Origin: Acidimicrobiaceae bacterium
GTDB lineage: Bacteria; Actinomycetota; Acidimicrobiia; Acidimicrobiales; RAAP-2
Length of the DNA stretch: 62,519 bases
Direction: 5' to 3'
Assembly: GCA_003133325.1 (NCBI GenBank)
Contig: PKXA01000047.1
Coordinates: 1 to 62,519, forward strand
Within the stretch, counting starts at the first letter, position 1. Each line of letters opens with the position of its first letter. The notes under the pieces were generated by a model. That model had not been told where the DNA came from, did no database searches, and was given only the letters and a program-made list of their open reading frames with translations. Below, piece after piece: positions 10,647-24,587 of this stretch. The position numbers and the translations under genes were made by a program.

Positions 10647-10655
10647 CTACGCGGT
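10624..10655. repeat. 16-bp tandem duplication at the ligase 3' end
   Basis: CCGGGCTCTACGCGGT occurs twice back to back (10624-10639, 10640-10655), followed by a partial third copy. The ligase stop codon (complement of 10647-10649) lies in the second copy, so the duplication has set the exact C-terminus. Confidence 0.8.
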
Positions 10656-12323
10656 CCGGGCAGAGGCTGCATCCTCGAGACCGAGCTCATTGACCGCGAT
10701 CTCGCGCATCTTGTACTTCTGAACCTTGCCGGTGATCGTCATCGGGAACTCGTCGACGAACTTGACGTGCTGAGGGACCTTGAAATGTGCCATCCGCTCC
10801 CGGCACCACGCACGGAGCGCCTCGCTCTCGAGCGTGGCTCCCGGCTTGAGGCGCACCCAGGCCATCACCACCTCGCCGTGGCGGCTGTCGGGGACACCCA
10901 CCACCTGGACGTCCTCGATCTCCTCGTGCACGTACAAGAGCTCTTCGACCTCTCGGGGGTAGACGTTCTCGCCGCCCCGGATGATCATGTCCTTGCTCCG
11001 GCCCACGATGTTCACGTACCCGTCTGCGTCCATGGTCGCGAGGTCGCCGGTGTGCATCCAGCCGGCCGCGTCGACCGCCTCCGCCGTGCGGGCGGGATCG
11101 TCCCAGTAGCCGAGCATCACCGAGTACCCCCGGGTGCACAGCTCACCGGCCTCGCCTTGGTCGACCATCAGCCCCGAGCCGGCGTCGATGACCTTCACCT
11201 CCACGTGCGGGTGGACCCGGCCTACCGTCGCCGTCCGGTGCTCGATCGAGTCGTCTGGCGACGTCTGGGTGGAGACCGGCGAGGTCTCGGTCATGCCGTA
11301 GCAGATGGTCATCTCGGCGCAGTGCATTCGCGTGACGACCTGCTTCATGACCTCGACTGGGCACGGTGACCCCGCCATGATGCCCGTCCGTAGGCTCGAG
11401 AGGTCGAAGTGGTCGAAGTCGGGCTGGGCCAGCTCGGCGATGAACATCGTGGGCACCCCATAGAGGGCAGTGCAGCGCTCCGCCGCTACCGCCTCGAGCA
11501 CAGCCTTCGGCTCGAAGGCGGCGCTCGGCAGGACGATGCAGGCCCCGTGGGAGGTCGCAGCCAGGTTCCCCATCACCATGCCGAAGCAGTGGTAGTAGGG
11601 AACCGGGACACAGATCCGGTCGCTTTCGGTGATCCGGCACCCCTCCCCGACGAAGTAGCCGTTGTTCAGGATGTTCAGGTGGGTGAGGGTCGCCCCCTTC
11701 GGGAACCCGGTCGTGCCCGACGTGTACTGGAGGTTGATCGGCTGGTCGGGGTCGAGGAGTCTCCCGAGCTCGGCGACACGGCCGGCAGGCACGCTATCTG
11801 CGTCCGAGCGCAGAGCGTCCCACCCGGGCCCGTCGAACAGCACGACGTCTGTCAGGCCCGGGAGGTCCCGCTTCACCTCGTCGATCATGGTCGCGTAGTT
11901 CGCGTCCCTGAAGGAAGGAGCCGCAACCACCATGGTGCTCGCCGATTGGCCGAGCACGTAGGCGAGCTCGCTCGTCCGGTAGGCGGGGTTGACGGTCACG
12001 AGGATGGCCCCGATGGAGGCAGTCGCGTACTGGAGCACCATCCACTCGACCCGGTTGGGGCTCCAGATGGCCACACGGTCGCCGCGCGCGACACCTCTCG
12101 CGACGAGGCCTCGGGCGACGAGGCCGACCTCGGCGAAGAACTCCGAGTAGGTGAGCCGCACCCCCTGCTCACGGCTGACGATGGCTTCAGCGTCGGGGAG
12201 ACGCTCGACAGTCGCCGCGAAGTTGTCGCCGATGGTCTCGACGAGCAGCGGCTTCGCCGTCGTCCCTTGTGCATACGAACGGGCGGATTTACCGGTGGAT
12301 GGTGTCATGGTCGATGGTGTCAT
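10647..12323 (-). CDS. Acyl-CoA synthetase (AMP-binding family, fatty-acid type)
   Basis: An ANL-superfamily ligase that adenylates a carboxylic acid and transfers it to CoA. From the ATG at 12323 it has 558 residues. Landmarks are the P-loop [21 protein letters not shown] (A5), [12 protein letters not shown] (A7/A8), [20 protein letters not shown], and the catalytic A10 lysine in [13 protein letters not shown]. The closest type is medium/long-chain FadD or the 'AMP-binding protein' of beta-oxidation clusters. An in-frame extension to 12647 is possible but reads as Gly/Arg-rich junk over flanking repeats. The N-terminus [10 protein letters not shown] is encoded by a 15-bp tandem duplication (12294-12323), so two alternative ATGs exist. 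The substrate is unknown. Confidence 0.88.
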
Positions 12324-12713
12324 GGTCACTGGGGAGGCGCCGGCAAGGCGCTCTCCCCGTCCCCCTTCTCCGGTCTCTTTGGGCTTTCGGCCTTCGGCCT
12401 GTTCACCCACGCACGCTTCGGTTGCGTCGGCCTCGCCTGCTGGCTTCTCTAGTCTTTGTACACCCAGAGAGGCCGCATGGGCACGTCCGTTGGCTCCGCT
12501 TCCCGCTTCGGCAGCCTGGTGCCACGAGTCGACCAACCCCACAAGGCCGCCAGCTGGTCCCCGGTGCCGTCGTCGAAGGAGGACGGGCTGGGCCTTCCCA
12601 AGGTCGAACGCCGGGGGCGTCGGCGTGGTGGTGATGGCGGTCTGCACCGTCGCCTTCCGTCAGCCGTGGATCCTCATCCCCTGGCCTACGGCTTCTGGGC
12701 CCGGGTGGCGGTC

Positions 12714-12923
12714 GGACCGCTGACCAACAACCAAGCGGAGCGAGATCTTCGCATGGCCAAGCTCAAGAAGGTCAGCGGGTGCTTCCAAAGTGACGACGGC
12801 GCCCGCAACTTCGCCACCATCCGCTCCTACATCTCGACGGCACGAAAGCACGGCGTCGGCGCACTCGACGCCCTCGCCATGCTCTTCCGTGGTGACGCTT
12901 GGATGCCATCGATCACCAACTGA
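12714..12923 (+). mobile_element. IS66-family transposase, C-terminal remnant
   Basis: The frame reads PLTNNQAERDLRMAKLKKVS, then SGCFQSDDGARNFATIRSYI and STARKHGVGALDALAMLF to a natural stop at 12921-12923. This is the conserved C-terminal block of IS66 DDE transposases, including the NNQAERD motif that carries the last catalytic Glu. Upstream sequence in this frame (12324-12713) does not resemble the rest of the enzyme, so at least four fifths of the gene is gone and no terminal inverted repeats are visible. The remnant cannot transpose. Confidence 0.75.
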
Positions 12924-13185
12924 ACAAGCAAGAGCGACTGGACCGGCACTTCATCGAGCACGATCACTCGCGTGCTGCGAGAGACCACTGACACTCGCGA
13001 TCGGCGATCAACGAAAGTCACGGTCTGAGCGCCCAACTTCGCGTACCTGGCACAACTACGCCCTGGTCAGTGTCGGGCCTGAATGTTTACCAAAATTGGC
13101 ATGCGCGAACCGGTTTCCCACTGCAATCCGACCCGGACAGGTCGAGCGGGACGGCTCGGAGCGGGACGCACCCGGATCAGCGCGA
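12924..13185. other. Intergenic between IS remnant and toxin gene
   Basis: No gene, tRNA or clear repeat is visible in these 262 bases. The interval is probably residual mobile-element or scrambled sequence. Confidence 0.35.
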
Positions 13186-13578
13186 TCAGGCAGGCGAGAC
13201 CACTTCGATGCCCGCTTCCGCGGCGGCCGAGCAGAGTCGAACGTCATATGCGACGAGGGCGGTCAGATTCGTCTTCACGGACAATGCACTTGCCAGGTGG
13301 ATTGCATCAAGGCTCCGCAACTCGGTCGGGATGAGGGTCGCAGCCTTCTCGACAATGGCCCGATCTATGGGGAGGAGGTCGATGCCCCCGAGCAATAGGA
13401 CCGCACCCTCAACCGCACCCTCGTCGACCCGCCGACATGTACGGAGCAGTTCAATTGTCGACAGGTCGCTGCTGACTTTGGGGATGTCTGCTCTGAGGGT
13501 CAGCCACTCGGCTAGGGCCGCGCTCTCGGTCTCATCGAAGACCAGCTTCACCAAGGCGGACGTGTCGAAGTAGATCAC
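13186..13578 (-). CDS. PIN-domain ribonuclease toxin (VapC-like)
   Basis: A 130-residue PIN-fold Mg2+-dependent RNase. The first acidic residue is in MIYFDTSALVKL (Asp5). The second acidic site is SSDLSTIELLR, and the third is RSLDAIHLASAL; the last acidic position falls in VAYDVRLCSAA. Length and order match VapC, which cleaves tRNA or rRNA when free of antitoxin. Its start overlaps the antitoxin stop by 4 bp, the usual coupled arrangement. Confidence 0.85.
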   Translation of the reverse strand: MIYFDTSALVKLVFDETESAALAEWLTLRADIPKVSSDLSTIELLRTCRRVDEGAVEGAVLLLGGIDLLPIDRAIVEKAATLIPTELRSLDAIHLASALSVKTNLTALVAYDVRLCSAAAEAGIEVVSPA

Positions 13579-13853
13579 GTGAGTCGGTCGCGGCGCAGTT
13601 CAGTGAGGACTTCAGTTCCCGTCGCCTCTCCGCCGACTACCCGTCGGCGCTCCGGCAAGTGGAACGCGCTCTTTGCTGGCACAAGGCGACCAGAAGCGAT
13701 GAGTTGATCCCTCACGGCAACGGCCGGGGTGGGGGACACCAAAAGGGCAACGAGCTTCCCCCTTTCGGTGACCTCGACGACTTCCCCAGCCTTCACTCGT
13801 TCGAGGTAGCGGCTCGCGTGTTGACGAAGTTCTCGCACTCCAATCCGGGTCAT
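13575..13853 (-). CDS. Phd/YefM-family antitoxin (VapB-like)
   Basis: A 92-residue protein beginning MTRIGVRELRQHASRYLERV, followed by KAGEVVEVTERGKLVALLV, the classic prevent-host-death/YefM DNA-binding fold. The C-terminal part (FHLPERRRVVGG onward) is the disordered segment that would block the PIN toxin. It lies upstream of and overlaps the toxin gene. A 9+9-bp palindrome at 13861-13883 just before its start is the likely autoregulatory site. With the -10-like TACAAT at 13860-13865, the mRNA may be leaderless. Confidence 0.85.
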   Translation of the reverse strand: MTRIGVRELRQHASRYLERVKAGEVVEVTERGKLVALLVSPTPAVAVRDQLIASGRLVPAKSAFHLPERRRVVGGEATGTEVLTELRRDRLT

Positions 13854-13860
13854 CGCATTA

Positions 13861-13883
13861 TTGTAGCACAGTGAGTGCTACAA
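13861..13883 (-). promoter_or_regulatory. Toxin-antitoxin operator palindrome
   Basis: TTGTAGCAC (13861-13869) and GTGCTACAA (13875-13883) are perfect inverted repeats with a 5-nt spacer, ending 8 bp before the antitoxin start codon. The minus-strand hexamer TACAAT inside it fits a -10 box and would put the transcript start at or next to the ATG. Binding of the antitoxin-toxin complex here would occlude RNA polymerase. Confidence 0.65.
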
Positions 13884-14000
13884 GATGTGGACGATCCGGC
13901 AGAACAGTGGGTCGGCCATGGAGCGCCCGTCTATGTGAGGCGCATAGTGGGCGCGGCCCAGTCGACTCGGCAATACTCGTCGAGAGGATCGAGGCCCTCT

Positions 14001-14271
14001 CGATTCAGGGCCTTCTACCGCTCCGAGTTGAACTTCCTGGTGCGGCGCATCAATGCCCACCTCATTCGGTGGGCGATGCACAAGTTCAAGCGTCTCAAGG
14101 GCAAGCCAACGAGGGCTTGGGCCTGGCTCAATGCGGTCATTCAGCGTGAACCACGGCTCTTCGCCCATTGGTGGCTCGCCTCGACACGGAATGGCCGACC
14201 TGTGGGAGCCGGATGACGGGAGACTGTCACGTCCGGTTCTGTGAGCCGGGGGTGAGACTCCCCCCGGCTAC
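14001..14271 (+). mobile_element. Group II intron 3' stub (maturase C-terminus plus domains V-VI)
   Basis: The frame ending at 14216 encodes FYRSELNFLVRRINAHLIRW, KFKRLKGKPTRAWAWLNAVI and REPRLFAHWW, the C-terminal part of group II intron reverse transcriptase/maturases, ending VGAG. The stop lies inside the following RNA domain V, as is usual. Domain V (14206-14239) and a domain VI-like hairpin (GCCGGGGG … CCCCCCGGC) follow, with the 3' splice end near 14271. Everything 5' (RT domains, ribozyme domains I-III) is missing; sequence between the toxin-antitoxin operator and about 14000 is unrecognisable. The stub abuts the XRE-TetR gene 3' end. Confidence 0.72.
14206..14239 (+). ncRNA. Group II intron domain V
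   Basis: Exactly 34 nt from GAGCCGGATG to GTCCGGTTC. It forms the diagnostic short hairpin with GAGCCGGA pairing to TCCGGTTC, an internal bulge, and a GAGA-type tetraloop in the distal stem (ACGG-GAGA-CTGT). This is the catalytic heart of the ribozyme and is well preserved although the rest of the intron is gone. Confidence 0.75.
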
Positions 14272-14276
14272 TTGCC

Positions 14277-15152
14277 TTAGGTGGCGCGGTATCCCAAAAG
14301 ACGTAGGGCAAACTGTGCATATTCCTTGGCAATCTGCTCAGGGGTGGTGGGTCCGTCGGGTTGGAACCACTGCACCAGTGACGTACACATGGTCGCTATC
14401 GCCTTCCCCGCGTCTCGTGGATGGTTGATGGCGAGACCGCCCTCCGTGATGGCCGCTGCAATCTCCGTGTCCAGCAGATGCTGGACATCGTCGCGGAGCT
14501 TGGCTATCCGACGGTAGTGATTGGACTCAAAGCTGCGCATCTCGCTAGCGCCGATGAACGCGACGTCGTTCCGTCTGGCGTGGAAGAGAGCCAACGCCTC
14601 GACGACGAGCGCAACCCTCTCGATCGGATTCTGCCCGTCGTCGCGTGCGTGCTGCAGTCGCCAAAGGAGATCCACCATCGTGATATCAAGGATCTTTACA
14701 AGCAACGCCTGTTTGCTGGGGTAATGGTGGTACACACCTGGCACGCTCATGTTGGCGAACTGTGCGATCGACCGCATGCTTGCCCCGTGGTAGCCGGTGG
14801 CGACGAACGCCTGGATGGCCCCTGCTAAGACGGGGTCGATCGGTAGGGGAGCGAACTCGCGCCAATTCCCGGTGGGGAGTTCGATCGAGGAGAGCGTCAC
14901 GTTCCGCCGCTGGGTCGAGGTCGTTGGATACTCGACGAGCGAGGCTGCAGGTACGCCGAGGGCTACTGCGATCTGGTGTAGCCGTTGGACCGAGATACCG
15001 GTCTTCCCGTTCTCGATGGCACTGATCGTAGCCGGGCTGACTCCCACTTGTTCGGCCAGCCTCCGTATCGAGACACCGCTCGCGACTCGCAGCCGGCGTA
15101 TGGCTTCTCCTGCGTTCGGCGTGGCCCTAACCGGATCGACTAATTCCTTCAT
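14277..15152 (-). CDS. XRE-TetR fusion transcriptional regulator
   Basis: 291 residues from the ATG at 15152. Residues 16-74 form an XRE/Cro helix-turn-helix (AIRRLRVASGVSIRRLAEQV, then SPATISAIENGKTGISVQRL). Residues 108-155 form a complete TetR HTH (FVATGYHGASMRSIAQFANM, SVPGVYHHYPSKQALL), followed by a TetR-type ligand domain with LVQWFQPDG near the end. Two different DNA-binding domains in one chain are unusual. The start is fixed by the XRE domain and by the perfect palindrome (15145-15183) that contains the ATG. It is divergent from the catabolic operon at 15308 and probably represses it and itself. It has an upstream in-frame extension to 15323, which I reject. Confidence 0.85.
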   Translation of the reverse strand: MKELVDPVRATPNAGEAIRRLRVASGVSIRRLAEQVGVSPATISAIENGKTGISVQRLHQIAVALGVPAASLVEYPTTSTQRRNVTLSSIELPTGNWREFAPLPIDPVLAGAIQAFVATGYHGASMRSIAQFANMSVPGVYHHYPSKQALLVKILDITMVDLLWRLQHARDDGQNPIERVALVVEALALFHARRNDVAFIGASEMRSFESNHYRRIAKLRDDVQHLLDTEIAAAITEGGLAINHPRDAGKAIATMCTSLVQWFQPDGPTTPEQIAKEYAQFALRLLGYRAT

Positions 15153-15183
15153 GGTGTTCAGAATATCTGAACACCATGAAGGA
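15145..15183. promoter_or_regulatory. Perfect 18+18-bp palindrome over the regulator start codon
   Basis: The left arm TCCTTCATGGTGTTCAGA (15145-15162) and its exact reverse complement (15166-15183) flank a 3-nt ATA centre. The regulator ATG (complement of 15150-15152) lies inside the left arm. On the minus strand TATTCT in the palindrome fits a -10 seven bases before the ATG, so the regulator mRNA would be leaderless. This is the obvious binding site for the XRE-TetR protein. It is longer than typical TetR or XRE sites and may accommodate both domains. Confidence 0.8.
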
Positions 15184-15216
15184 GTCCACGACCTACTAGG
15201 GATCCGCAGTTGGGGA

Positions 15217-15245
15217 TTGACATGGGTAGATATGCATGTGACAGT
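15217..15245 (+). promoter_or_regulatory. Candidate promoter of the catabolic operon
   Basis: A consensus -35 TTGACA (15217-15222), a 17-nt spacer and GACAGT (15240-15245), which keeps the critical A2 and T6 of the -10. Transcription would start near 15252, about 56 nt before the hydrolase ATG. The large palindrome lies 34 bp upstream, so repression could work by looping or oligomer spread, or activation could be involved. Confidence 0.45.
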
Positions 15246-15307
15246 GGACTCACCCGACATGGATGCCGAGCGAACGCTCTGTTCGATCGTCTGGAAAGGA
15301 TCTCCTG

Positions 15308-16261
15308 ATGACTGAAGTCCCAACTATGGATGAACTCCTCAAGGGTGCCCCGACGAACTGGGGTAAGTGGGGGGACGAGGATGAGGTTGGCGCGCTGAAC
15401 TACCTCACCGCCGAGGAAGTGTTCCGCGGGGTGCGTCACATCAAGTCCGGCAACGTGTTCACCCTGCAGCGGCTGATCGGCGACCCCAAGGGAGACCCGG
15501 TTTGGCCTGGGCGCACACCGGCCGAAAAGACGATGGTCCTCGACGAATCCTCATGGGACGGCGACGACGCCCCCAAGTTCCCGGGAGGCCTCCACTACGC
15601 AGACGACAAGATCAGCGCGTTCCTCCAGGGCTCGACGCAGTACGACGCGCTCGGCCACGTCTGGTACGACGGTCAGCTCTGGAATGGGTACGACGCACGC
15701 AGCACGATCGGCGGACTGGACAAGGCCAGCGTGGCTCCGATAGCGGAGCGCGGTGTCGTCGGTCGGGGCATCCTGGTTGACATGGCCCGCTTCCGTGACA
15801 AGGAGAATCTCGACAAAGCCGAAACCTTCACCCACGAGGACCTGATGGCGTGTGCTGAGGCCCAGGGCACCAAGATCGAGAAGCACGACATCCTGATCAT
15901 TCGAACCAACTTCCTCAAGCTGTTCTTCGACCAGGGCGAAAAGTTCTACGAGGGCTTCTGCGAACCAGGTCTGGTCTACAGCCCCGAGCTCGTTCAGTGG
16001 TTCCAGGACATGGAGATCCCGAACCTCGTCACCGATACCATCGCCAACGAGGTCACGACAGACCCGAACAATGGCACGGCACTTCCGTTGCACTGCGCCT
16101 TGATGCGCAACCTCGGTATCGCACTGACCGAGATCTGCGACTTGGAGAAGCTGGCCTCCCACTGTGCCGAGGACGGGCAGTACACGTTCCTCTACGCAGC
16201 GGCCCCGTTGAAGGTGAACGAGGCGAGCGGCTCGCCCGTCAACCCCCTTGCGATCAAGTGA
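15308..16261 (+). CDS. Cyclase-family metal-dependent hydrolase (kynurenine-formamidase-like fold)
   Basis: A 317-residue protein of the 'cyclase' (Pfam Cyclase) family, which binds a divalent metal and hydrolyses amides, lactones or cyclic esters. The family segment TQYDALGHVWYDG stands where the HxGTHxD metal motif lies in kynurenine formamidase; this long subfamily has that variant. Other conserved parts are GALNYLT near the N-terminus, GRGILVDMA and IIRTNF. The ATG at 15308 has AAAGGA 7 bases upstream; the longer in-frame start at 15263 lies before it without a ribosome site. It is the first gene of the operon controlled by the divergent fusion regulator. I infer it opens a cyclic substrate to give the acid used by the next gene. 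Confidence 0.82.
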   Translation: MTEVPTMDELLKGAPTNWGKWGDEDEVGALNYLTAEEVFRGVRHIKSGNVFTLQRLIGDPKGDPVWPGRTPAEKTMVLDESSWDGDDAPKFPGGLHYADDKISAFLQGSTQYDALGHVWYDGQLWNGYDARSTIGGLDKASVAPIAERGVVGRGILVDMARFRDKENLDKAETFTHEDLMACAEAQGTKIEKHDILIIRTNFLKLFFDQGEKFYEGFCEPGLVYSPELVQWFQDMEIPNLVTDTIANEVTTDPNNGTALPLHCALMRNLGIALTEICDLEKLASHCAEDGQYTFLYAAAPLKVNEASGSPVNPLAIK

Positions 16262-17922
16262 CGACGTACACCGAGCGCCCTTGGACGAAGCTATACAGTG
16301 AGGGGCGTCCCGCGGACATCACGCCCGACTTCGCTACCATGCTCGACCTGTTCAACGCGTCGGTGGCGCGGGCGCCGGACAACATCGCCATCAAGTACTT
16401 CGACGGTGTGCTCACCATGGCTGATCTTGACCGGCGTTCCGACTCGCTGGCGGTGGCCTTGGTCGACAACGGGTTCGCTGCTGGGGACAGGCTCGGGGTC
16501 TATGTGCAGAACAACCCGGCGTTCGTCATCTCGTTGGTGGCAGCATGGAAGGCTGGCGGCGCGGCGGTGGCCATCAACCCGATGAACAAGCAACGCGAGC
16601 TGACCTACCTGCTCACCGACTCCGGTGCCAGTGCACTGCTGTGTCTGGACGAACTCTACGAGTCGGTGGCCAAGGAGGTCATCGCGACCGGTGAGACCGT
16701 GGTCACGACCGTGATCACCTGCTCCCCGCTCGACGAGCAGTCCCGCCACGATGATCGGCTGTTTGCCGGTTCGGAGCGGCTGCGCCCCGAAGGGACGCTG
16801 GACCTCGAGGAGATCTTCAGCCAGCACGAAGGTCGCAAGCCGGCGCCTGTCGATCCGAGTCCCGACGACGTGGCCGTGCTGAGCTACACCTCCGGGACCA
16901 CCGGCGTGCCGAAGGGTGCGATGAACACCCACGGCACGATGGCGTTCAACTCCCAGACCTACCGTGACTGGATGGGTTTCACCGCCGACGACTCCGTGCT
17001 CGGGGTCGCTCCGCTGTTCCATATCACCGGCCTGATCGGCCACATAGGGATCGCGTTGCTCGTAGCGTGCCCGCTGGTGATCAACCACCGGTTCGAACCG
17101 GGTGTGGTCATCGACGCGATTCGTGAGCACCGGCCCACGTTCACCGTCGGGTCGATCACGGTGTTCATCAACCTGTCGGGGCTGGAGGGGGTGACCAAGC
17201 AGGACTGGTCCTCCTTCCGGATGGTCTACTCCGGTGGTGCGCCGATCGCGCCAGCGGTCATCGACCGGTTCATGGAGAAGACCGGTCTCTACATCCACAA
17301 CATCTACGGTCTGACCGAGACCAACTCGCCTTCGCACGCCGTACCTCTGGGCAAGAAGGCGCCGGTGGACCCGAACTCGGGGGCGTTGTCGGTGGGTGTG
17401 CCGGTGTTCAACACCGTGGTCCGGATCCTCGACGAGGCGGGCAAGGAAGTCCCCGTCGGCCACGTTGGTGAGTTCGTCACCTCGGGACCGCAGGTCATCC
17501 CCGGCTACTGGAACAAGCCGGAGGCGACCACGGAAAGCCTGCCCGGCGGTGAGTTGCGCACTGGTGACGTCGGGTTCATGGACGAAGACGGCTGGTTCTA
17601 CCTGGTAGACCGCAAGAAGGACATGATCAACGCCGCCGGTTACAAAGTATGGCCACGTGAGGTCGAGGACGTGCTCTACGGCCATCCGGCGGTCCGCGAG
17701 GCAGCGGTGGTCGGTGTTGCGGATGAGTACCGCGGTGAGACAGTGAAGGCCTACGTCTCACGCGAGCCCGGAGCGACGGTCACCGAGGAAGAGCTGATCG
17801 AGTTCTGCAAGCAGCAGATGGCGGCGTACAAGTACCCGCGCTCGATCCAGTTCCTCGACGACCTACCGAAGACCACGACCGGGAAGATTCTGCGGCGCGA
17901 GCTGCGTGCTCTGAATTCGTGA
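16258..17922 (+). CDS. Acyl-CoA ligase (AMP-binding, class I)
   Basis: 554 residues from a GTG overlapping the hydrolase stop by 4 bp. ANL motifs: SYTSGTTGVPKGAMNTHG (P-loop), NIYGLTETNSPS, GELRTGDVGFMD, LVDRKKDMINAAGYKVWPRE and PKTTTGKILRREL with the catalytic lysine. It should adenylate an organic acid and make its CoA thioester. In this operon it would activate the product of the hydrolase for the kinase and dehydrogenase that follow, the same role as LvaE in levulinate catabolism (family knowledge). Substrate specificity is not readable. Confidence 0.88.
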   Translation: MTTYTERPWTKLYSEGRPADITPDFATMLDLFNASVARAPDNIAIKYFDGVLTMADLDRRSDSLAVALVDNGFAAGDRLGVYVQNNPAFVISLVAAWKAGGAAVAINPMNKQRELTYLLTDSGASALLCLDELYESVAKEVIATGETVVTTVITCSPLDEQSRHDDRLFAGSERLRPEGTLDLEEIFSQHEGRKPAPVDPSPDDVAVLSYTSGTTGVPKGAMNTHGTMAFNSQTYRDWMGFTADDSVLGVAPLFHITGLIGHIGIALLVACPLVINHRFEPGVVIDAIREHRPTFTVGSITVFINLSGLEGVTKQDWSSFRMVYSGGAPIAPAVIDRFMEKTGLYIHNIYGLTETNSPSHAVPLGKKAPVDPNSGALSVGVPVFNTVVRILDEAGKEVPVGHVGEFVTSGPQVIPGYWNKPEATTESLPGGELRTGDVGFMDEDGWFYLVDRKKDMINAAGYKVWPREVEDVLYGHPAVREAAVVGVADEYRGETVKAYVSREPGATVTEEELIEFCKQQMAAYKYPRSIQFLDDLPKTTTGKILRRELRALNS

Positions 17923-18950
17923 GCATCGTTGACCTGGTACGGCTGGACCGGTTGGGTCCGGCTTTGGTCCAAGCAACGGGTGATCCGCGTTGGCGTTGGC
18001 TGGACGCCACTCTCATTACCGGGGGCAAGTCGAACCTGACGTTCGAGGTCACGAGTGAGGCTGGCGCGGTGATCCTGCGCCGACCTCCGTCGGGTGCGTT
18101 GTTGCCGAGTGCCCATGACATGGATCGTGAGGCTCGGATCCAACAAGCGCTGGCGGGAACGGCGGTGCCGGTACCCAAGGTCGTATTGCAGGAGGCCAGC
18201 GGGGACCTACTGGGCGTGCCGTTCTACGTGATGGAGAAGGTGCCCGGTCACGCCATCCGTACCCAGATGCCAGACGGGTATGCCGAGTCGCCAGGGGAGA
18301 AGCTGGCGCTATCGGACGCACTGGTCGACGTACTGGCGGATCTTCACACGATTGACCCGGCAACGATCAGATTGGATGACTACGGGCGGCCGCACGGCTA
18401 CTTGAAGAGGCAGATCCAGCGCTGGAACGGCCAGTGGGAGAAGACCAAGACCCATGAAGTGAAGGCAGTCGATGAGCTCGGTGCCCGGCTGGCGAGGCTA
18501 CTGCCAGAACACCAGCGGCATTCGATCGTGCACGGTGACTACCGGCTCGATAACTGTTTGATGGCCTTGGCCGACCCGTCGCGGATGACTGCCGTCTTGG
18601 ACTGGGAGCTGTCCACACTGGGTGACCCGTTAACCGACCTCGGGCTGCTGTTGTTCTACTGGCGCGAGCCCGGGGAGTTTGAGCTGGCACTGGCTCCTTC
18701 GGTGACGCGGTACGCAGGCTTCCCGACAAGAGCCCATCTGGCGGAGCGCTACGCACAGCGGACCGGTGCCCCGTTGGACGACATTGCCTTCTACGAGGGG
18801 TTCGCACATTTCAAGTTCGCGGTGATCGCACAGGGCATTAGCGCCCGGGTGGCGAGCGGCGCGATGGCCGGGCAGAACTTCGGCGACCTCGATGACGAGG
18901 TCCTGAAGGTCGCCGAAGAAGGTCTCAAGAGACTCGAACAGGAGGGGTAA
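17919..18950 (+). CDS. APH/ChoK-fold kinase, ACAD10/11-associated type
   Basis: 343 residues from a GTG overlapping the ligase stop by 4 bp. It has the aminoglycoside phosphotransferase fold: ATP-site region GGKSNLTFEV and AVILRRPP, catalytic loop SIVHGDYRLDNCLM (HGDYRLDN), and metal motif AVLDWELSTLGDPLTDLG. These are the hallmarks of the kinase domain fused to acyl-CoA dehydrogenase in eukaryotic ACAD10/11 and of the bacterial LvaA type, which phosphorylates the hydroxyl of 4-hydroxyacyl-CoA. Here the dehydrogenase partner is the next gene. An antibiotic-resistance role is unlikely given the operon. Confidence 0.85.
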   Translation: MSIVDLVRLDRLGPALVQATGDPRWRWLDATLITGGKSNLTFEVTSEAGAVILRRPPSGALLPSAHDMDREARIQQALAGTAVPVPKVVLQEASGDLLGVPFYVMEKVPGHAIRTQMPDGYAESPGEKLALSDALVDVLADLHTIDPATIRLDDYGRPHGYLKRQIQRWNGQWEKTKTHEVKAVDELGARLARLLPEHQRHSIVHGDYRLDNCLMALADPSRMTAVLDWELSTLGDPLTDLGLLLFYWREPGEFELALAPSVTRYAGFPTRAHLAERYAQRTGAPLDDIAFYEGFAHFKFAVIAQGISARVASGAMAGQNFGDLDDEVLKVAEEGLKRLEQEG

Positions 18951-18954
18951 AGGA

Positions 18955-20160
18955 ATGGATTTCGCGCTGTCGCCGAGGTCGGAGGAAGTGTGTGCCCGGA
19001 TGTGGGAGTTCATGCGGGAGGAGGTCTTCCCTGCGGAGAAGGAGTACGAGCGGTGGCGGGCGGACCACGACCCGCATGCGCACCCTCCGGTGCTGGAGCG
19101 GTTGAAGGCGTCGGCGAAAGGGCGGAATCTGTGGAACCTCTTCCTGCCCGAGATGTCGGGGTTGTCGAACCTCGAGTACGCCGGGGTCGCGGAGATCTCG
19201 GGATGGTCGCCGGTGATCGCACCGGAGGCCATCAACTGTCAGGCCCCGGACAGCGGCAACATGGAAACGCTGCACCTTTTCGCGACGCCGGAGCAGAAGA
19301 AGCAATGGCTCGAACCGTTGCTCTCCGGGGAGATCCGGTCGTCGTTCGCCATGACCGAACCGGACGTGGCGTCCTCGGATGCGACGAACATCACCACCGA
19401 AATGGTCCGTGACGGTGACGACTATGTGATCAACGGACGGAAGTGGTGGGTCAGCGGGGCCGCCGACGAGCGGTGCCGGGTGCTCATCGTGATGGGCAAG
19501 ACCGACCCGAAGGCGGAGACGCATCGGCAACAGTCGATGATCCTCGTGCCTCGGGATACTCCTGGGATGACAATCGAGCGGCACGTACCGATCTTTGGGT
19601 ACCAGGACCAACACGGGCACTCCGAAATCGTGTTCCGGAACGTGCGGGTGTCGGCGTCGAACATGCTGGCGGCCCAAGGGGATGGATTTATGGTCGCCCA
19701 AGCCCGACTGGGTCCGGGCCGAGTTCACCACGCCATGCGGGCTATCGGGATGGCCGAACGTGCCCTGGGGCTGATGGTAGATCGAGCGAAGTCGCGGGTG
19801 GCGTTCGGCAAGCACTTGTCCGACCAGGGGGTGGTGCGGGAGCTGATCGCTCAGTCCCGAATCGACATCGACCAGGTCCGACTGCTCGTGTACATGACGG
19901 CCTGGCTGATCGACAAGGACGGTGCCAAGGGAGCGCGCACCGAAATCGCGGCGATCAAGGTCGCCGCACCGGCGATGGCCGTGGCGGTGATCGATCGGGC
20001 GATCGAGGTGTTCGGGGGTGCCGGTGTCAGCGATGATACGCCGCTGGCGTATTTCTACGCTTGGGCCCGGAGCCTGCGCATTGTCGACGGGCCCGACGCC
20101 GTCCACCGGCGCTCGATCGCCAACGAAGAGCTCAAACGAAAACGCCCGTTTGTAGGTTGA
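18955..20160 (+). CDS. Acyl-CoA dehydrogenase, ACAD10/11-like
   Basis: 401 residues with a strong ribosome site (AGGAGG, 18939-18944) and only 4 bp after the kinase stop. The flavin-site motifs are MTEPDVASSDATN, INGRKWWVSGA, HGHSEIVFRNVRV and RLGPGRVHHAMRAIGMAERA. The C-terminus has GGAGVSDDTPLAY and RIVDGPDAVH. The APEAINCQAPDSGNMETL block is characteristic of ACAD11-type enzymes. In the levulinate pathway the LvaC homologue removes phosphate from a 4-phosphoacyl-CoA on the way to a normal beta-oxidation intermediate. I infer the same role here as the last step of the operon. Confidence 0.88.
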   Translation: MDFALSPRSEEVCARMWEFMREEVFPAEKEYERWRADHDPHAHPPVLERLKASAKGRNLWNLFLPEMSGLSNLEYAGVAEISGWSPVIAPEAINCQAPDSGNMETLHLFATPEQKKQWLEPLLSGEIRSSFAMTEPDVASSDATNITTEMVRDGDDYVINGRKWWVSGAADERCRVLIVMGKTDPKAETHRQQSMILVPRDTPGMTIERHVPIFGYQDQHGHSEIVFRNVRVSASNMLAAQGDGFMVAQARLGPGRVHHAMRAIGMAERALGLMVDRAKSRVAFGKHLSDQGVVRELIAQSRIDIDQVRLLVYMTAWLIDKDGAKGARTEIAAIKVAAPAMAVAVIDRAIEVFGGAGVSDDTPLAYFYAWARSLRIVDGPDAVHRRSIANEELKRKRPFVG

Positions 20161-20374
20161 CCCGAACCGTGGGGAGACGACGTGGAAGTCTCAGCCCGGA
20201 CTACGTGGTCGAGGAGGCTGTTCTGGAGGCGGTGGAGACCGGTTACCAGCGGTGCCGGGACACGGTGAGTCCCTGATCGACCCGATGCCCGCCTCCACTT
20301 CCTCCACGGCCTCGATCACGGCGTTGCGACTCGTGCCAGTCGCCTCGGCCACGGTGGACACATCAGCCGCGAAC

Positions 20375-20779
20375 ACAGAAAGTCCGAGCTGGCGCAGAAG
20401 ATCACCACGCCGATGAGCATCAGTCTCTTCCGCCCGAAGTTATCGCCCCGGCTACCGCAGATCAGCATCAGGCTGGCGAAGGCCAGGGCGTACCCGCTGA
20501 CACCCACCGAAGGTGGGCCACCCCGGCGTGGAGCCCGGACTGGACCGCCGACTGGGTGGCGCTGATCACCGTGTTGTCGAGGAAGGTCAGGAACAGGATC
20601 GACAGCAGCACCACCATCCCGTAGTGCGGTACCAACGAACGCGGGGTGGCCGGCGCCGAGGGTTCGTCCGAGTCGACGCCGGCGGAGGTCGGCGGAGGTC
20701 GGCGGGGAAGGCTCGAGTCCGGTCCCTGCCTGCCGGGTGATGTCCATCGGGGCTTCCGTCTCCAGCATGGGCGGTCCAC
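20375..20779 (-). pseudogene. DHA2-type MFS drug transporter remnant
   Basis: The first two membrane segments of an MFS exporter are recognisable: VVLLSILFLTFLDNTVISAT, then HAGVAHLRWV. After a one-base deletion near 20500 the homology continues in another frame as SGYALAFASLMLICGSRGDN, then GRKRLMLIGVVIFCAS. The family needs WVVSGY at the junction; the DNA lacks one G there. Homology stops near 20375, so 10-12 of the usual 12-14 segments are missing. It is dead by frameshift and truncation. Bases 20161-20374 hold no recognised gene. Confidence 0.68.
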
Positions 20780-20790
20780 AGGGCGGCAAG

Positions 20791-21009
20791 GGCATTCCTC
20801 GTCCGCTCCTTCTCACCCGTGACGCCGGGGCGGGCCCCCTGGACTACGTGGCGGCGCAGGTGCTGGCTCTGAGCAAGATGGACTGGAACAACGACTCTCT
20901 CTACGACGGTCTGCCATGCGCCGTTCGCTGTGCGAAAGTCCTGGCCAAGACCATCAAACACATGCCCGATCTGGCTCCGCAGCCGTATGATTACCGTCTC
21001 TTCATGTGA
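20791..21009 (+). pseudogene. Prokaryotic Argonaute, C-terminal PIWI remnant
   Basis: The plus frame reads IPRPLLLTRDAGAGPLDYVA, then AQVLALSKMDWNNDSLYDGL, PCAVRCAKVLAKTIKHMPDL and a natural C-terminus YDYRLFM at the stop 21007-21009. This is the end of a PIWI domain: the PxPL strand, the LxLSKMDWN helix and the LP…AKVLAK helix seen in long prokaryotic Argonautes. The rest of the protein (N, PAZ, MID, most of PIWI) is absent. It starts where the MFS remnant on the other strand begins. The assignment rests on motif memory and needs a profile search. Confidence 0.55.
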
Positions 21010-21126
21010 CTCTCGTCACGTTGCTGTCGGACCAGGGCCACGTCAAAGTCCCGGTGATGAGCTCCTGACCTGGTAGTCCGTCTCTCGATTGACGAAGTGT
21101 TCGCCTGTCGTGGTAGCTGTACCTGC

Positions 21127-21500
21127 GTGCCGGAGCGCTTCGAGACATCCCAGGGCCTCGTGGTGCGCCCCGTCGTCGCCTCCGAGATCGGTCGCTTCGA
21201 CGCACTACTGGACGAACATCACTGGTTGGGCCGTGGCCTGGTCGGTGAGACCCTGCGCCACATAGCGGTGATCGACGGCGAATGGATCGGTCTCGTCGGC
21301 TATGGGTCACCTGCGCTCACGTGCTCCGCGCGTGACTGGTGGATCGGGTGGTCGCCCACCGTCCGGTACCGGCGCTTGCGGTTCGTCGCCAACAACCAAC
21401 GGTTCTGCATCCTGCCTGCCGGCCGCTACCCGAACGTCGCCTCGGCTGTCCTCGGTGCCTCACTGCGGCGGTTGGCTGCGGACTGGGAATCCGTTTGCAG
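21127..21500 (+). pseudogene. DUF4338 (DruA-like) protein, N-terminal remnant
   Basis: Reading from the GTG at 21127: LVVRPVVASEIGRFDALLDE, HHWLGRGLVGETLRHIAVID, SARDWWIGWSPTVRYRRLRF, VANNQRFCILPAGRYPNVAS and LGASLRRLAADWES. This matches the N-terminal half of the DUF4338 family, which includes DruA of the Druantia defence system and many transposon-linked proteins. After ADWES the family similarity is lost and the frame ends at 21645 in unrelated residues, over the start of the next gene. The C-terminal half is missing, so it is presumably inactive. Confidence 0.6.
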
Positions 21501-21523
21501 CCGCACCAGAAAGAAGAAGTCCA

Positions 21524-22279
21524 TTGCCGGGCACGCGGATTCCCTTCGCACCCGAGCTCGGCCTGGCCACGCGCGCCGGCGTCGGCACCGAGCCCAGGGT
21601 GGTCGCAGACCGCTTGCGCAAGCTCGGCTGGCTGCTGCCCACTGAGACGGCAGGTGTGTGGGAGTTCGCTCCCGCCGCCCACGCAGGACCGATCGGCCAC
21701 GGCGACCAGTTCCTCGAGCTGCGGGCCTCCCTCGCCAATCGCCCATCGCTCGACGCCGCGGTGTGTCTGACGTCGGCTTTGCTCGCCCATGGGCTTACCG
21801 ATCGCGCTCCGGACCGCCTCGAAGTTGCCGTGAAGAAGGGGGCCTCGATCCCCGAAGGATTGCACCGCGCCACGCGGGTTGTCGTCTTCGACTCCAATCT
21901 CACTCCCGAGCGGTCCCGCGGTGTACCCGTCCACTTGCCCGCTACCATCCTCGTGCACGTAGCGGCTCGACCAGCCGACGTGCGGAGCTGGGGGACGATC
22001 GCCGATGCCCTGCCCGATCTCGTCGACGTGGTGACGCCGGCCGACATCGAGGCTGAGCTCGCGGGCCGGCCCCGATCGGTGCGAGTCCGTCTCGCCTACC
22101 TCTCCCAGGGCGTCGCCCCCGACCTCGCCGATCGCCTTCTCCCGGCAGATGAGGGGGGACGCTCCGCCCCGAAGGTCTGGTTCGGGCCCCGCGGCAGCCT
22201 CAAGCGCCAGAGTGCCCGGTTCTCGGTCGCCGACACCCTGTTGCCGTTCGATCCCGCCGGCTTACTCCCGGTGACGTGA
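21524..22279 (+). CDS. AbiEi-like type IV antitoxin/regulator, orphan
   Basis: About 251 residues from a possible TTG start at 21524 (MPGTRIPFAPELG). A winged-helix start (VVADRLRKLGWLLPTETAGV) is followed by WEFAPAAHAGPIGHGDQFLE, AAVCLTSALLAHGLTDRAPD, VHLPATILVHVAARPADVRSW and APKVWFGPRG, ending VADTLLPFDP. This layout is that of AbiEi-type antitoxins and related transcriptional regulators. No AbiEii nucleotidyltransferase toxin follows; the next frame is an SCO1 fragment. The normal start may have been lost at the junction with the DUF4338 remnant at about 21500, so the gene could be 5'-truncated. Confidence 0.55.
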   Translation: MPGTRIPFAPELGLATRAGVGTEPRVVADRLRKLGWLLPTETAGVWEFAPAAHAGPIGHGDQFLELRASLANRPSLDAAVCLTSALLAHGLTDRAPDRLEVAVKKGASIPEGLHRATRVVVFDSNLTPERSRGVPVHLPATILVHVAARPADVRSWGTIADALPDLVDVVTPADIEAELAGRPRSVRVRLAYLSQGVAPDLADRLLPADEGGRSAPKVWFGPRGSLKRQSARFSVADTLLPFDPAGLLPVT

Positions 22280-22614
22280 GCCCAAACCCCTACAACCTCA
22301 CCGTGAGCGACGTTGCCACCTACTCTCAGGTGCACCAACTGAACACGATCCCGTCGTGGCACTTCTTCACTGGCTCAGTGAGTGATCTCACGGCCGTCTG
22401 GCACAGCTACGGCATCGAAGTCGAAGTCCCCACCCCGGATGCCGACATCATCCACACCTCGGTCGTGTTCTTCATTGATCCAAGCGGTCACGAGCGCTAC
22501 ATCGCTACACCGATGGACGATCACACAGCCCAAGGCAGTGCCTACCTCCCTGCAGGCCCGCTTGCCTCGTGGGGAGACGGGATTGCTCTCGTGACCCGCC
22601 AGCTCATCCGATAG
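22276..22614 (+). pseudogene. SCO1/SenC-type copper chaperone, C-terminal fragment
   Basis: 112 residues with the C-terminal half of an SCO1-like thioredoxin fold: VHQLNTIPSWHFFTGSVSDL, VWHSYGIEVEV, DIIHTSVVFFIDPSGHERYI with the copper-ligand His of the family, and AYLPAGPLASWGDGIALVTR. The N-terminal half with the membrane anchor and the CxxxC copper site is missing. A GTG overlaps the AbiEi stop, but this looks accidental. It is probably inactive. Confidence 0.6.
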
Positions 22615-22664
22615 GTCGAGATGGTCTGCTTCGGGGCGGACCGACGAGCTGAGATACTGGCTTC

Positions 22665-23309
22665 ATGGCATCAGATGGGCCGGCGGTGAGAAACGAGACC
22701 AGGGAAGAACACTGGAACTCCGTGTATGAACAGAGGGGCACAGCTGGCGTCAGTTGGTATCAACCGACTCCAGAGATGTCGCTTGCACTCATCGAGAGGC
22801 TGGCCGTTCCGACCAATGCAGGCATCATCGATATCGGAGGTGGTGCATCTCGGCTGGCAGCATCGCTCCTGGCTCGGGGGTTCGATGACCTCACAGTGCT
22901 CGATGTCTCTGCACGGGCACTGGAGCTGTCACAGGCACAACTCGGACCTGATGCACGGAAGGTCCAGTGGCTGCAGGAGGACCTCCTCTCCTGGTCACCG
23001 TCTCGGACCTACGACCTGTGGCATGACCGTGCTGTGTTCCATTTCCTCATCGATCCAGCGAGCCAACAGCGTTATGTGGAGTTGCTCCGTGCTGGGGTTG
23101 CTCTGGACGGGCACGTCATTCTCGGAACGTTCGCTCTCGACGGCCCCGAGGAGTGCTCTGGACTTCCTGTCGCTCGCTACGACGGTGCCACGCTTGGCAC
23201 TGTGCTCGGGACCGGCTTTGTCCTAATCGATGAATGGCAGGAGAAACACCGCACCCCAACCGGAGCCATCCAGCCATTCACCTGGACAGCGTTCAAGAGA
23301 GAGATGTGA
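22665..23309 (+). CDS. Class I SAM-dependent methyltransferase
   Basis: 214 residues. SAM-binding motif I is IIDIGGGASRLAASLL, the acidic end of strand 2 is LTVLDVSARALELS, and motif IV follows DLWHDRAVFHFL. The start REEHWNSVYEQRGTAGVSWY places it among small TehB-like or thiopurine/heavy-metal methyltransferases that often occur in metal-resistance clusters. The next gene's GTG overlaps its stop. It opens a block of genes with lower GC than the core genes, and it is followed by copper-related genes. The substrate is unknown. Confidence 0.75.
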   Translation: MASDGPAVRNETREEHWNSVYEQRGTAGVSWYQPTPEMSLALIERLAVPTNAGIIDIGGGASRLAASLLARGFDDLTVLDVSARALELSQAQLGPDARKVQWLQEDLLSWSPSRTYDLWHDRAVFHFLIDPASQQRYVELLRAGVALDGHVILGTFALDGPEECSGLPVARYDGATLGTVLGTGFVLIDEWQEKHRTPTGAIQPFTWTAFKREM

Positions 23310-23527
23310 ACCACCTCGCCATCACCATCTACGGCGTGTGTGCTGTCACCTTCACGATGGTGATGTATGCACTCGAAGGAGGAGACCGGAGGTTCGTCCT
23401 GGCTTTCGCTGTTGGCTGTCTTCTCTCCAGTGCCTACGGGTTCCTTGCAGGCGCTGGGCCGTTTGGTGTCGTGGATGTCACCTGGTCAGGCGTTGCATTG
23501 CGACGGTTTGCCTCGATACATGTCTGA
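23306..23527 (+). CDS. Small two-helix membrane protein
   Basis: 73 residues from a GTG overlapping the methyltransferase stop by 4 bp. Two hydrophobic segments (LAITIYGVCAVTFTMVMYAL, FVLAFAVGCLLSSAYGFLAG) flank a short EGGDRRF loop, ending GPFGVVDVTWSGVALRRF. I recognise the pattern from small actinobacterial membrane proteins of unknown function. Tight coupling to the methyltransferase supports that it is translated. Confidence 0.6.
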   Translation: MNHLAITIYGVCAVTFTMVMYALEGGDRRFVLAFAVGCLLSSAYGFLAGAGPFGVVDVTWSGVALRRFASIHV

Positions 23528-23710
23528 ACACCACGCTCACCATGGCTCCGTCACCGGCAGACTCTCCGTGTCACGAGTCAGGCTGGCCACATCCTCCGGC
23601 TCGCCACGAATGCCGTTTCCCGTCACGACCTTCTGGCCAAGGTCTTTCGACTCTAGGACGCCGAGCAGAGTGCAGCGCAGAATGGAGTCAGACGACTGGA
23701 GGCATCGCGC

Positions 23711-23956
23711 ATGATGTACGGATGGGGTAACGGCTGGGGGGCTGGGATGTGGATCGTCATGGCTGTTGCCATGGTGGTCTTCTGGGCCATCGTCGTGTTC
23801 GGCATCGTCGCTCTCGTCCGCACCTTTGGCCATACTCACGACCAACCGGCAGTCCCTCCAGCAGACCCGGAGTCCATCCTGCGAGAGCGGCTCGCCCGAG
23901 GAGAGATCGACGAGGAGGCGTTCAGGAAGACGCTCGCTGCACTCCGGGAGAAGTAG
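23711..23956 (+). CDS. SHOCT-domain small membrane protein
   Basis: 81 residues: an N-terminal Gly/Trp-rich stretch (MMYGWGNGWGAGMW), one membrane helix (IVMAVAMVVFWAIVVFGIVA) and a C-terminal SHOCT motif (DPESILRERLARGEIDEEAF). SHOCT proteins commonly flank metal and stress-response membrane proteins. The stop shares one base with the start of the cupredoxin gene (TAGTG), so the two are coupled. Confidence 0.75.
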   Translation: MMYGWGNGWGAGMWIVMAVAMVVFWAIVVFGIVALVRTFGHTHDQPAVPPADPESILRERLARGEIDEEAFRKTLAALREK

Positions 23957-24498
23957 TGGCAAGCCGTCTCCGCTCTCACGGAGCCCTGGTGCTCGTCGTC
24001 GTCCTCCTTGCTGCAGCGTCAATGGCCCTTGTCGGTGTTGTGGTCAACGGCTTTGGCCGCAGCACGACAGCCGTTGCCTCGTGCGAGCCATCCCATACAG
24101 CAAGCCAGGTCGTCCAGGTCGGGCTCTACGACGGGGGAAACGGCATGATGGGTGCAGCCCCCATGATGCTCCGTCTCATCCCGAGCCCGTCGTCCGGCTC
24201 GGCAGGCCAGGTGACTTTCGTTGTCACGAACTACGGAGCGCTGAATCACGAGTTCCTCGTGCTCCCCATGCCAGCCGACGGGATCGGGACTCGACCTGTC
24301 GGGAGTGACGGCAAGATCGACGAGTCCCAGAGCCTTGGTGAGGCATCGACCTCATGCGGGGCCGGTCCGGGCAATGGCATCGCAACAGGGTCCCGGAGCT
24401 GGGTGACCCTCACGCTCCGTCCGGGCAACTACGAATTGCTGTGCGATGTGCCGTGGCACTACGCCGACGGGATGTACGCAGCCTTCACGGTGACGTAG
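23956..24498 (+). CDS. Membrane-anchored cupredoxin-like copper protein
   Basis: 180 residues from GTG 23956, with an N-terminal hydrophobic anchor (LVLVVVLLAAASMALVGVVV). The C-terminal ~100 residues form a type I copper domain. The ligand set is visible as His98 (ALNHEF), Cys163, His168 and Met173 in ELLCDVPWHYADGMYAAF, the sulfocyanin-like C-x4-H-x4-M spacing. It would sit outside the membrane as a copper carrier or sequestering protein, consistent with CsoR regulation next door. Confidence 0.75.
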   Translation: MASRLRSHGALVLVVVLLAAASMALVGVVVNGFGRSTTAVASCEPSHTASQVVQVGLYDGGNGMMGAAPMMLRLIPSPSSGSAGQVTFVVTNYGALNHEFLVLPMPADGIGTRPVGSDGKIDESQSLGEASTSCGAGPGNGIATGSRSWVTLTLRPGNYELLCDVPWHYADGMYAAFTVT

Positions 24499-24536
24499 TA
24501 GTCCAGGCCTCCTCCCCCACGGGCGAGTCCGGCCTG

Positions 24537-24564
24537 TTGAATCGATACCCCCACGGGGTATACT
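24537..24564 (+). promoter_or_regulatory. csoR promoter with CsoR operator in the spacer
   Basis: -35 TTGAAT (24537-24542), 16-nt spacer and -10 TATACT (24559-24564) form a strong sigma70-like promoter 24 nt before the csoR ATG. Inside the spacer the inverted repeat ATACCCC-CAC-GGGGTAT (24545-24561) matches the known CsoR operator type (TACCCC/GGGGTA). Apo-CsoR would block RNA polymerase, and Cu(I) would release it, turning on csoR and the permease. Confidence 0.85.
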
Positions 24565-24587
24565 CTCCTCAGAAGGAGGGTCACCCC

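Follow-up and report, generated by a model that had tools for sequence, protein, structure and literature searches.

Introduction

The phosphorylation route for 4-hydroxy acids has been assigned to genes only recently, first in Pseudomonas putida and then in mammals. Here we analyzed a four-gene operon encoding a 'cyclase'-family hydrolase (CYC), an acyl-CoA ligase (LIG), an APH-fold kinase (KIN) and an ACAD11-type dehydrogenase (ACAD), together with the divergent gene of its putative regulator (REG). The operon lies in a stretch of DNA from Acidimicrobiaceae bacterium (GCA_003133325.1, contig PKXA01000047.1, positions 1 to 62,519), called the window below; the contig measures 72,715 bases and belongs to a draft genome of 4.05 Mb.

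For mammalian ACAD11, roles have been described for the catalytic Asp, the phosphate-binding Arg/His/Arg residues, the kinase residues D220 and N225 and the CoA-contact residues R176 and R86, and the substitutions reported as most disruptive to its ACAD activity were R626, H634 and R637 (PMC12440821). Related bacterial proteins are reported to have replaced domains of ACAD10 (PMC11342911). In Rhodococcus erythropolis, two qsd operon products, the lactonase QsdA and the ligase QsdC, are reported to be needed for the use of gamma-caprolactone (PMC6476934). Dihydrophloroglucinol cyclohydrolase, a 'cyclase'-family relative of isatin hydrolase, is described as opening dihydrophloroglucinol, a cyclic dione, by C-C cleavage with Mn (PMC10470551).

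Our analysis puts at about even the chance that the operon is a catabolic unit that would feed a ring-derived 4-hydroxy acid into beta-oxidation. In a literature search, chiefly of titles and abstracts, we recognised no description of the operon, of the CYC subfamily or of the XRE-TetR fusion that we found in REG. The hydrolase was new to us in this role; the ligase belongs to the presumed QsdC clade, and a route like that of LvaA/LvaC and ACAD10/11 is known.

Results

The operon was on the forward strand and began with CYC (15308..16261), a PF04199 hydrolase with the motif LQGSTQYDALGH that was identified by Pfam and fold match and is proposed for the ring-opening step. It was followed by LIG (16258..17922; PF00501 and PF13193), placed by Pfam and a ligase tree, by KIN (17919..18950; PF01636), a proposed 4-hydroxyacyl-CoA kinase, and by ACAD (18955..20160; PF00441/PF02770), an ACAD11/LvaC-type flavoenzyme proposed to eliminate phosphate from 4-phosphoacyl-CoA; the last two were assigned by Pfam and alignment. 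All these Pfam assignments were above the family cut-offs, and the four enzymes named in the preliminary description were borne out. That description also had the genes chained by 4-bp overlaps throughout. The CYC/LIG (16258-16261) and LIG/KIN (17919-17922) junctions were each a 4-bp GTGA overlap, but KIN and ACAD were separated by a gap of 4 nt, preceded by an AGGAGG-like sequence. REG (14277..15152, reverse strand) was divergent to CYC. Scans for sigma-70 promoters and terminators at the locus gave no match.

ACAD scored 443.8 bits against mouse ACAD11 and 139.2 bits against the best ordinary ACAD in the PDB set (2vig), while a bacterial-type structure (4hr3, putative acyl-CoA dehydrogenase) sided with ACAD11, at 406 bits to ACAD. 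KIN matched PF01636 at 171.8 bits. ACAD11 was the reference for both proteins; two of its mutant chains, 8v3u and 8v3v, which deviate at the kinase Asp and at the ACAD Asp, fixed the residue correspondence. In the alignment, ACAD11 R626, R631, H634, R637 and D753 corresponded to ACAD R251, R256, H259, R262 and D378, the last being the catalytic Asp at a position where ordinary ACADs have glutamate. The equivalents of R251 and H259 were kept in 32 of 32 ACAD rows (query included), R262 in 31 and D378 in 31, the remaining row being gapped at D378, where its contig ends. On the kinase side, ACAD11 R176, D220 and N225 corresponded to KIN R164, D207 and N212, and all 18 KIN rows (query included) kept R164, HGD, N212 and D228; R70/E71 was kept in 17, the other row being gapped. 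Since ACAD keeps the Arg/His/Arg triad and catalytic Asp of ACAD11, and KIN the kinase catalytic residues, a predicted route from 4-hydroxyacyl-CoA through 4-phosphoacyl-CoA to enoyl-CoA is well supported. The kinase-plus-ACAD logic of the ACAD10/11 type that had been proposed for the locus was upheld by these diagnostic residues and by the repeated linkage to CYC given below.

Two further sequence sets were set aside. An ACAD of Pseudomonas ceruminis was dropped as an LvaC reference, having no kinase match beside it, and the distal ACAD orthologues (68-75% identical, in 9 of 11 regions, from Geodermatophilaceae and Pseudonocardia) were uninformative about the pathway, their recurrent annotated neighbours being molybdate transport and housekeeping-type genes. 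In the genome of the window itself, an ACAD11-type paralogue (60%, G000:C16:125987-127183) and a distant CYC paralogue (33%, G000:C16:139772-140716) were separated by about 13 kb. A kinase search in the phylum gave matches in 146 of 396 genomes, and we surveyed 40 of the places that it listed. One HAD type was present at nine of these loci (L248, L252, L253, L258, L261, L264, L268, L271 and L280) and another at three (L265, L267 and L281); both mostly adjoined the kinase, an arrangement that resembles the HAD-kinase-ACAD make-up of ACAD10.

The same enzymes could also be read as a variant of the levulinate (Lva) operon, as KIN, ACAD and the ligase match the roles described for LvaA, LvaC and LvaE (PMC6692424). 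We consider this very improbable. Within the operon, where absence was scored, as opposed to the rest of the genome, there was no LvaD-type short-chain dehydrogenase/reductase (SDR) gene and no extra gene that could be LvaB; the regulator was an XRE-TetR fusion and not of the sigma-54-dependent LvaR type, and a PF04199 hydrolase headed the operon. The missing LvaB is by itself a weak argument because the lva cluster of P. citronellolis is described as having none either (PMC6692424). Of the Lva-like logic put forward earlier, the roles of the kinase and ACAD stood, but the LvaD-type gene, the LvaB gene and a sigma-54 regulator were missing from the operon.

To return to the four genes as one unit for ring-derived 4-hydroxy acids, the survey of gene neighbourhoods called for in the preliminary description was run on 84 CYC loci (the window, L042 and L052-L133), 19 of them shorter than 18 kb and with fetched flanks of 1.50 Mb in all. 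In 64 of the 84 there was a ligase sharing 45% identity or more with LIG (60 of 78 by an earlier gene-call count, in which L053 had no called gene). KIN (at least 33% identity) was found in 13 loci, where density predicted 0.61, and ACAD (at least 55% identity) in 12, where density predicted 0.38. The densities came from 54 ACAD and 88 KIN matches in 42 CYC genomes (209.9 Mb), with identity thresholds that were similar but not identical to those of the locus counts. A CYC-LIG-KIN-ACAD unit is therefore beyond chance. A further ACAD, 37% identical and carrying the R/H/R/D residues, was present in the CYC locus of a Blastomonas plasmid.

Gene order differed among the linked loci. The order CYC-LIG-KIN-ACAD was shared by the window and L058, with the contig of L057 ending at KIN; L125 read CYC-LIG-ACAD-KIN and L083 CYC-LIG-ADH-EthD-KIN-ACAD-ECH-ligase. 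The Aeromicrobium-type loci had ECH-ACAD-SDR-KIN-CYC, and the Blastomonas plasmid ligase-CYC-TonB receptor-SDR/epimerase-ACAD-KIN. The CYC loci do not count as independent cases, since the four of Aeromicrobium type form one clade. On a CYC tree (quick method, LG+G4), the state 'KIN or ACAD nearby' needed 9 changes, of which the starred branches force at least 6. KIN or ACAD thus joined CYC repeatedly.

QsdA is presumably a phosphotriesterase-family protein, and a plasmid of Tsukamurella tyrosinosolvens carried KIN-ACAD-ACAD-ACAD-phosphotriesterase-ligase in one run (289 bits to the phosphotriesterase Pfam family). Searched with this phosphotriesterase at E <= 1e-60, nine of 12 CYC genomes tested were positive. 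Three of them, R. erythropolis NBRC 15567, R. qingshengii and Rhodococcus sp. P-2, had a single match each (58% identical), and about 25-31 bases downstream, measured between alignment ends, all three had a ligase 53-54% identical to LIG. We infer these pairs to be qsdA-qsdC; the presumed QsdC is defined here by its position after the phosphotriesterase in the three genomes. The three ligases, about 96% identical to one another, formed one clade (100/100 support) with 25 CYC- or REG-linked ligases, the clade of LIG, apart from eight others, and the tree did not separate nesting inside the CYC ligases from a position beside them (approximately unbiased test, p 0.263). In addition to its presumed qsdA-qsdC pair (L311), R. 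erythropolis NBRC 15567 had a CYC-LIG pair (L063). Five CYC loci likewise contained a phosphotriesterase, namely L042 and the four of Aeromicrobium type, the latter four having CYC, phosphotriesterase, KIN and ACAD together. No phosphotriesterase match was found at 9001-27000 of the window, where a PF04199 protein stands in the place of QsdA. Our main ground for reading CYC as a putative ring-opener yielding a hydroxy acid is its position, where a lactonase would stand, next to a ligase of the clade shared with the presumed QsdC; the qsd parallel supports the lactone idea short of proof.

Two of these regions were gene groups of interest in themselves. The Tsukamurella run with its flanks (L213:6125-15036) read HAD-FabG-MaoC-KIN-ACAD-ACAD-ACAD-phosphotriesterase-ligase, a candidate for a full operon from lactone to enoyl-CoA, including a protein of the lactonase type. 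In Rhodococcus sp. P-2 (L310:2986-16684), the presumed qsdA-qsdC pair and genes for HAD, MaoC, ECH, an ACAD11-type ACAD, SDR and a kinase lay within 14 kb, with ECH, ACAD (58%), SDR and KIN (40%) on the same strand about 9-13 kb from the lactonase; the fetched stretches of R. erythropolis NBRC 15567 and R. qingshengii end short of this distance. It is possible that this group is the missing downstream part of gamma-caprolactone catabolism.

CYC scored 61.8 bits against PF04199, whose cut-off is 23.1, and is thus a member of this Pfam family. The family metal motif is HxGTHxDxxxH. At this position CYC reads QGSTQYDALGH, with Gln for two His; LQGSTQYDALGH was kept in 69 of 88 CYC alignment rows (query included), and one of the 88 had His at both places. 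D113, H117, H262 and E275 were invariant in 30 aligned sequences. An AlphaFold2 model of CYC had a mean predicted local distance difference test score (pLDDT) of 79.8 but only 50-61 at residues 101-150, around the motif. Its fold matched 5ibz (Z 30.7), isatin hydrolases (Z about 17, best 17.6) and kynurenine formamidases (Z 15-16).

A dione is a serious rival to a lactone as the substrate because a relative on this fold cleaves the C-C bond of a cyclic dione. CYC would then be a C-C hydrolase (retro-Claisen) converting a cyclic dione to a keto acid, which LIG would activate; a reductase encoded elsewhere would give the 4-hydroxyacyl-CoA, and KIN and ACAD would remove the hydroxyl as in levulinate catabolism. 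Such a reading gains from the reported C-C cleavage by the 'cyclase'-family dihydrophloroglucinol cyclohydrolase (PMC10470551), from the SDR, epimerase-type or Zn-dependent alcohol dehydrogenase genes beside KIN/ACAD in several CYC loci, and from two settings of CYC relatives, one of 59% identity amid Gfo/Idh/MocA, iolC and DeoC-type genes and those of Leucobacter beside thiamine diphosphate (ThDP) and E1/E2 enzymes. It loses from the window operon having no reductase gene and from the LIG clade also serving a lactonase-type pair, and we regard it as unlikely. The opening of lactones by CYC, as first suggested, drew support from the shared clade of LIG and the lactonase-following ligase and from the four Aeromicrobium-type loci, but it was weakened by the replaced His of the metal motif and the C-C cleavage of the fold relative.

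CYC orthologues were sporadic; at E <= 1e-75 they occurred in seven genomes, from five families and with the genome of the window counted, among the 397 of the order. A genome collection gave 71 named CYC loci, mostly of Actinomycetota, with six of Pseudomonadota and one in a Myxococcales metagenome-assembled genome. Ten plasmid records had CYC relatives (E <= 1e-60), and no relative was found in the viral contigs searched. Two of the plasmids were haloarchaeal (Salinigranum rubrum, 46%; Halomarina sp. PSR21, 44%), so that the family crosses domains. On a plasmid of R. erythropolis R138 (L151:16928-23002), a 59% CYC relative lay amid Gfo/Idh/MocA, DeoC-type, iolC and isomerase genes; no ThDP enzyme is annotated in this stretch, and the CYC relative may take the role of IolD in a pathway for cyclitols. 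In Leucobacter ruminantium (L123:6992-14243), a CYC relative lay beside genes for a ThDP enzyme, a glyoxalase-type protein and an E1/E2 2-oxoacid dehydrogenase. With relatives in cyclitol-type and ThDP/E1-E2 settings, the family probably acts on more than one ring.

The regulator, which had been expected to be of a new type, proved to be an unusual fusion of an XRE helix-turn-helix domain (HTH_3), a TetR helix-turn-helix domain (TetR_N) and TetR_C_24, with a well-defined candidate operator. The XRE and TetR halves were both common to 18 aligned REG sequences, window included. The likely start codon of REG (ATG, 15152-15150) is covered by a perfect palindrome at 15145..15183, with 18-nt arms and a 3-nt centre, which we propose as the REG operator; the longest open reading frame (ORF) starts at a TTG at 15323. 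The palindrome core, TGTTCAG-N5-CTGAACA, was the sole perfect copy in the genome, where six more places had 1-2 mismatches, against two for a reversed-pattern control.

Across the 84 CYC loci, GTTCAG-N5-CTGAAC (at most one mismatch) occurred at 21 sites, all within 400 bases of REG/CYC. The same 1.50 Mb had 0-18 matches to each of twenty shuffled palindromes, so that the count was not far outside the controls; it is the placement beside REG/CYC that stands out, the controls having been compared by count alone. REG-like matches were present in 25 of the 84 loci, over only 180-194 residues in L093, L104 and L125, and 18 of the 25 had the motif; the seven without it were L054, L087, L102 and L117 and the three partial-REG loci. 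L106, L111 and L128 had one copy before CYC and another before REG and a divergent second ligase, and in two Klenkia loci the motif lay between divergent ACAD and REG. In 20 CYC genomes the motif was found at 14 places in 11 genomes (at most one mismatch; control 0), three of these outside CYC loci (two in Gordonia, one in Rhodococcus sp. P-2). A palindrome search by inverted-repeat score gave values little above shuffles in most loci. By its position and recurrence, TGTTCAG-N5-CTGAACA is very probably the REG operator. QsdR, by analogy a regulator of like role, has differing reports on its ligand: gamma-caprolactone is said to have relieved its binding in an electrophoretic mobility shift assay (PMC6476934), while calorimetry reportedly detected no interaction with four gamma-lactone compounds (PMC4640858).

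Elsewhere in the window, 13186-13578 (reverse strand) encoded a PIN-domain protein, and an ORF at 12456-12923 without Pfam match looked like a transposase remnant. At 24354-26401 (forward strand), a gene for a CsoR-type metal-sensitive repressor overlapped that of an ArsP_1 permease with YHS domains, likely a metal-response pair.

Discussion

We propose that CYC would open a cyclic precursor, most likely a gamma-lactone or a similar cyclic ester, to a 4-hydroxy acid, a step that taken on its own could fall either way. LIG would then likely form the CoA thioester of the 4-hydroxy acid. KIN would, with good confidence, transfer phosphate from ATP onto the 4-hydroxyl of the acyl-CoA, and the strongest assignment is that of ACAD, which with FAD would very probably eliminate the phosphate without net oxidation to yield a 2-enoyl-CoA. 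General beta-oxidation would complete the breakdown. REG is probably a repressor of its own gene and of the operon, acting at TGTTCAG-N5-CTGAACA, and would be released by the substrate or an acyl-CoA intermediate. More tentatively, and with somewhat less than an even chance, CYC could be a new class of ring-opening enzyme on the cyclase fold, having Gln where the metal motif has His and giving access, in place of QsdA, to the phosphorylated 4-hydroxyacyl-CoA route; a hydrolase, a QsdC-type ligase and LvaA/LvaC-type pairs would have been assembled repeatedly, with a family of XRE-TetR fusions and its own operator in control.

Several observations weigh against this proposal. Neither KIN nor ACAD was found in the fetched flanks of 67 of the 84 CYC loci, so CYC-LIG can act without them or with copies elsewhere. 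At the 40 other kinase loci there was no CYC and no phosphotriesterase, and only nine had an ACAD (at least 36% identity). The kinase was present in 87 of 96 Geodermatophilaceae genomes at E <= 1e-80; co-occurrence of KIN and CYC at the genome level was dropped as evidence, the kinase being near-universal in the family of Geodermatophilus saharensis. With Gln for two of the motif His, a standard metal-hydrolase mechanism is not assured for CYC, and CYC relatives of 59-60% identity have a cyclitol-like cluster or ThDP/E1-E2 genes around them. On the qsd side, a neighbouring ligase of the LIG clade was present in only three near-identical Rhodococcus loci of the six phosphotriesterase loci fetched, one Gordonia and two Pseudonocardia loci having a ligase of another kind or none; the Tsukamurella ligase falls outside the clade, the qsdA-qsdC identity of the Rhodococcus pair is our own inference, and the phosphotriesterase family is presumed for QsdA. 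On KIN, the counterpart of ACAD11 R86 was not placed; by the numbering that suits the other residues, position 84 of ACAD11 holds the Arg next to the helix-C Glu (KIN R70, kept).

The many loci with neither KIN nor ACAD would also suit two separate modules, a self-contained CYC-LIG pair that activates a cyclic amide or ester and a KIN-ACAD module for the 4-hydroxyacyl-CoA of another substrate, sharing an operon by chance. Close KIN-ACAD pairs do occur without a nearby CYC, as in a genome of the Geodermatophilus saharensis family (KIN 56%, ACAD 78%, with an SDR), and the same-fold isatin hydrolase and kynurenine formamidase cut amides. We nevertheless hold this to be improbable: the linkage arose repeatedly and in differing orders, the genes of the window operon overlap tightly, and the operator lies between REG and divergent ACAD in the two Klenkia loci.

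If one unit acts on ring-derived 4-hydroxy acids, as we propose, the locus suggests how bacteria enter the phosphorylation route from ring compounds and indicates where the lactone products of the quorum-quenching qsd operon are likely to go next. An uncharacterised branch of PF04199 gains a testable reaction, and REG with its candidate operator makes a regulator-operator pair suited to a reporter assay.

Comparison with known systems

Judged by the defining genes of both, the operon is neither an Lva nor a qsd operon. The lva operon of Pseudomonas putida, as described (PMC6692424, PMC12440821), has a kinase and an ACAD-family enzyme for 4-hydroxyacyl-CoA and an acyl-CoA ligase, as does the window. 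By the same description, the window operon differs in having no counterpart of LvaB, LvaD or LvaR and in having a hydrolase in front. With mammalian ACAD10/ACAD11 the likeness is one of homology, KIN and ACAD corresponding to the two domains of ACAD11 with the key residues kept; the domains are fused in ACAD11, whereas KIN and ACAD are two separate proteins, and the HCMR motif of ACAD11 is HAMR in the window. CYC shares its fold and Pfam family with the PF04199 proteins isatin hydrolase, kynurenine formamidase, dihydrophloroglucinol cyclohydrolase and 5ibz, but has QGSTQYDALGH in place of the family motif. It has the Gln version of the motif in common with 5ibz, which is described only as a novel cyclase. 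Like the window, the presumed qsdA-qsdC operon of R. erythropolis has a ring-opening hydrolase followed by a ligase of the LIG clade, but its hydrolase is of the phosphotriesterase type and that of the window is PF04199. The qsd operon is reported to have a TetR-type repressor upstream (PMC6476934); QsdR is TetR-like, whereas the window regulator is an XRE-TetR fusion. A further likeness is the ECH-ACAD-SDR-KIN group of Rhodococcus sp. P-2, on the same strand at about 9-13 kb from the lactonase. In the window, KIN and ACAD are inside the operon.

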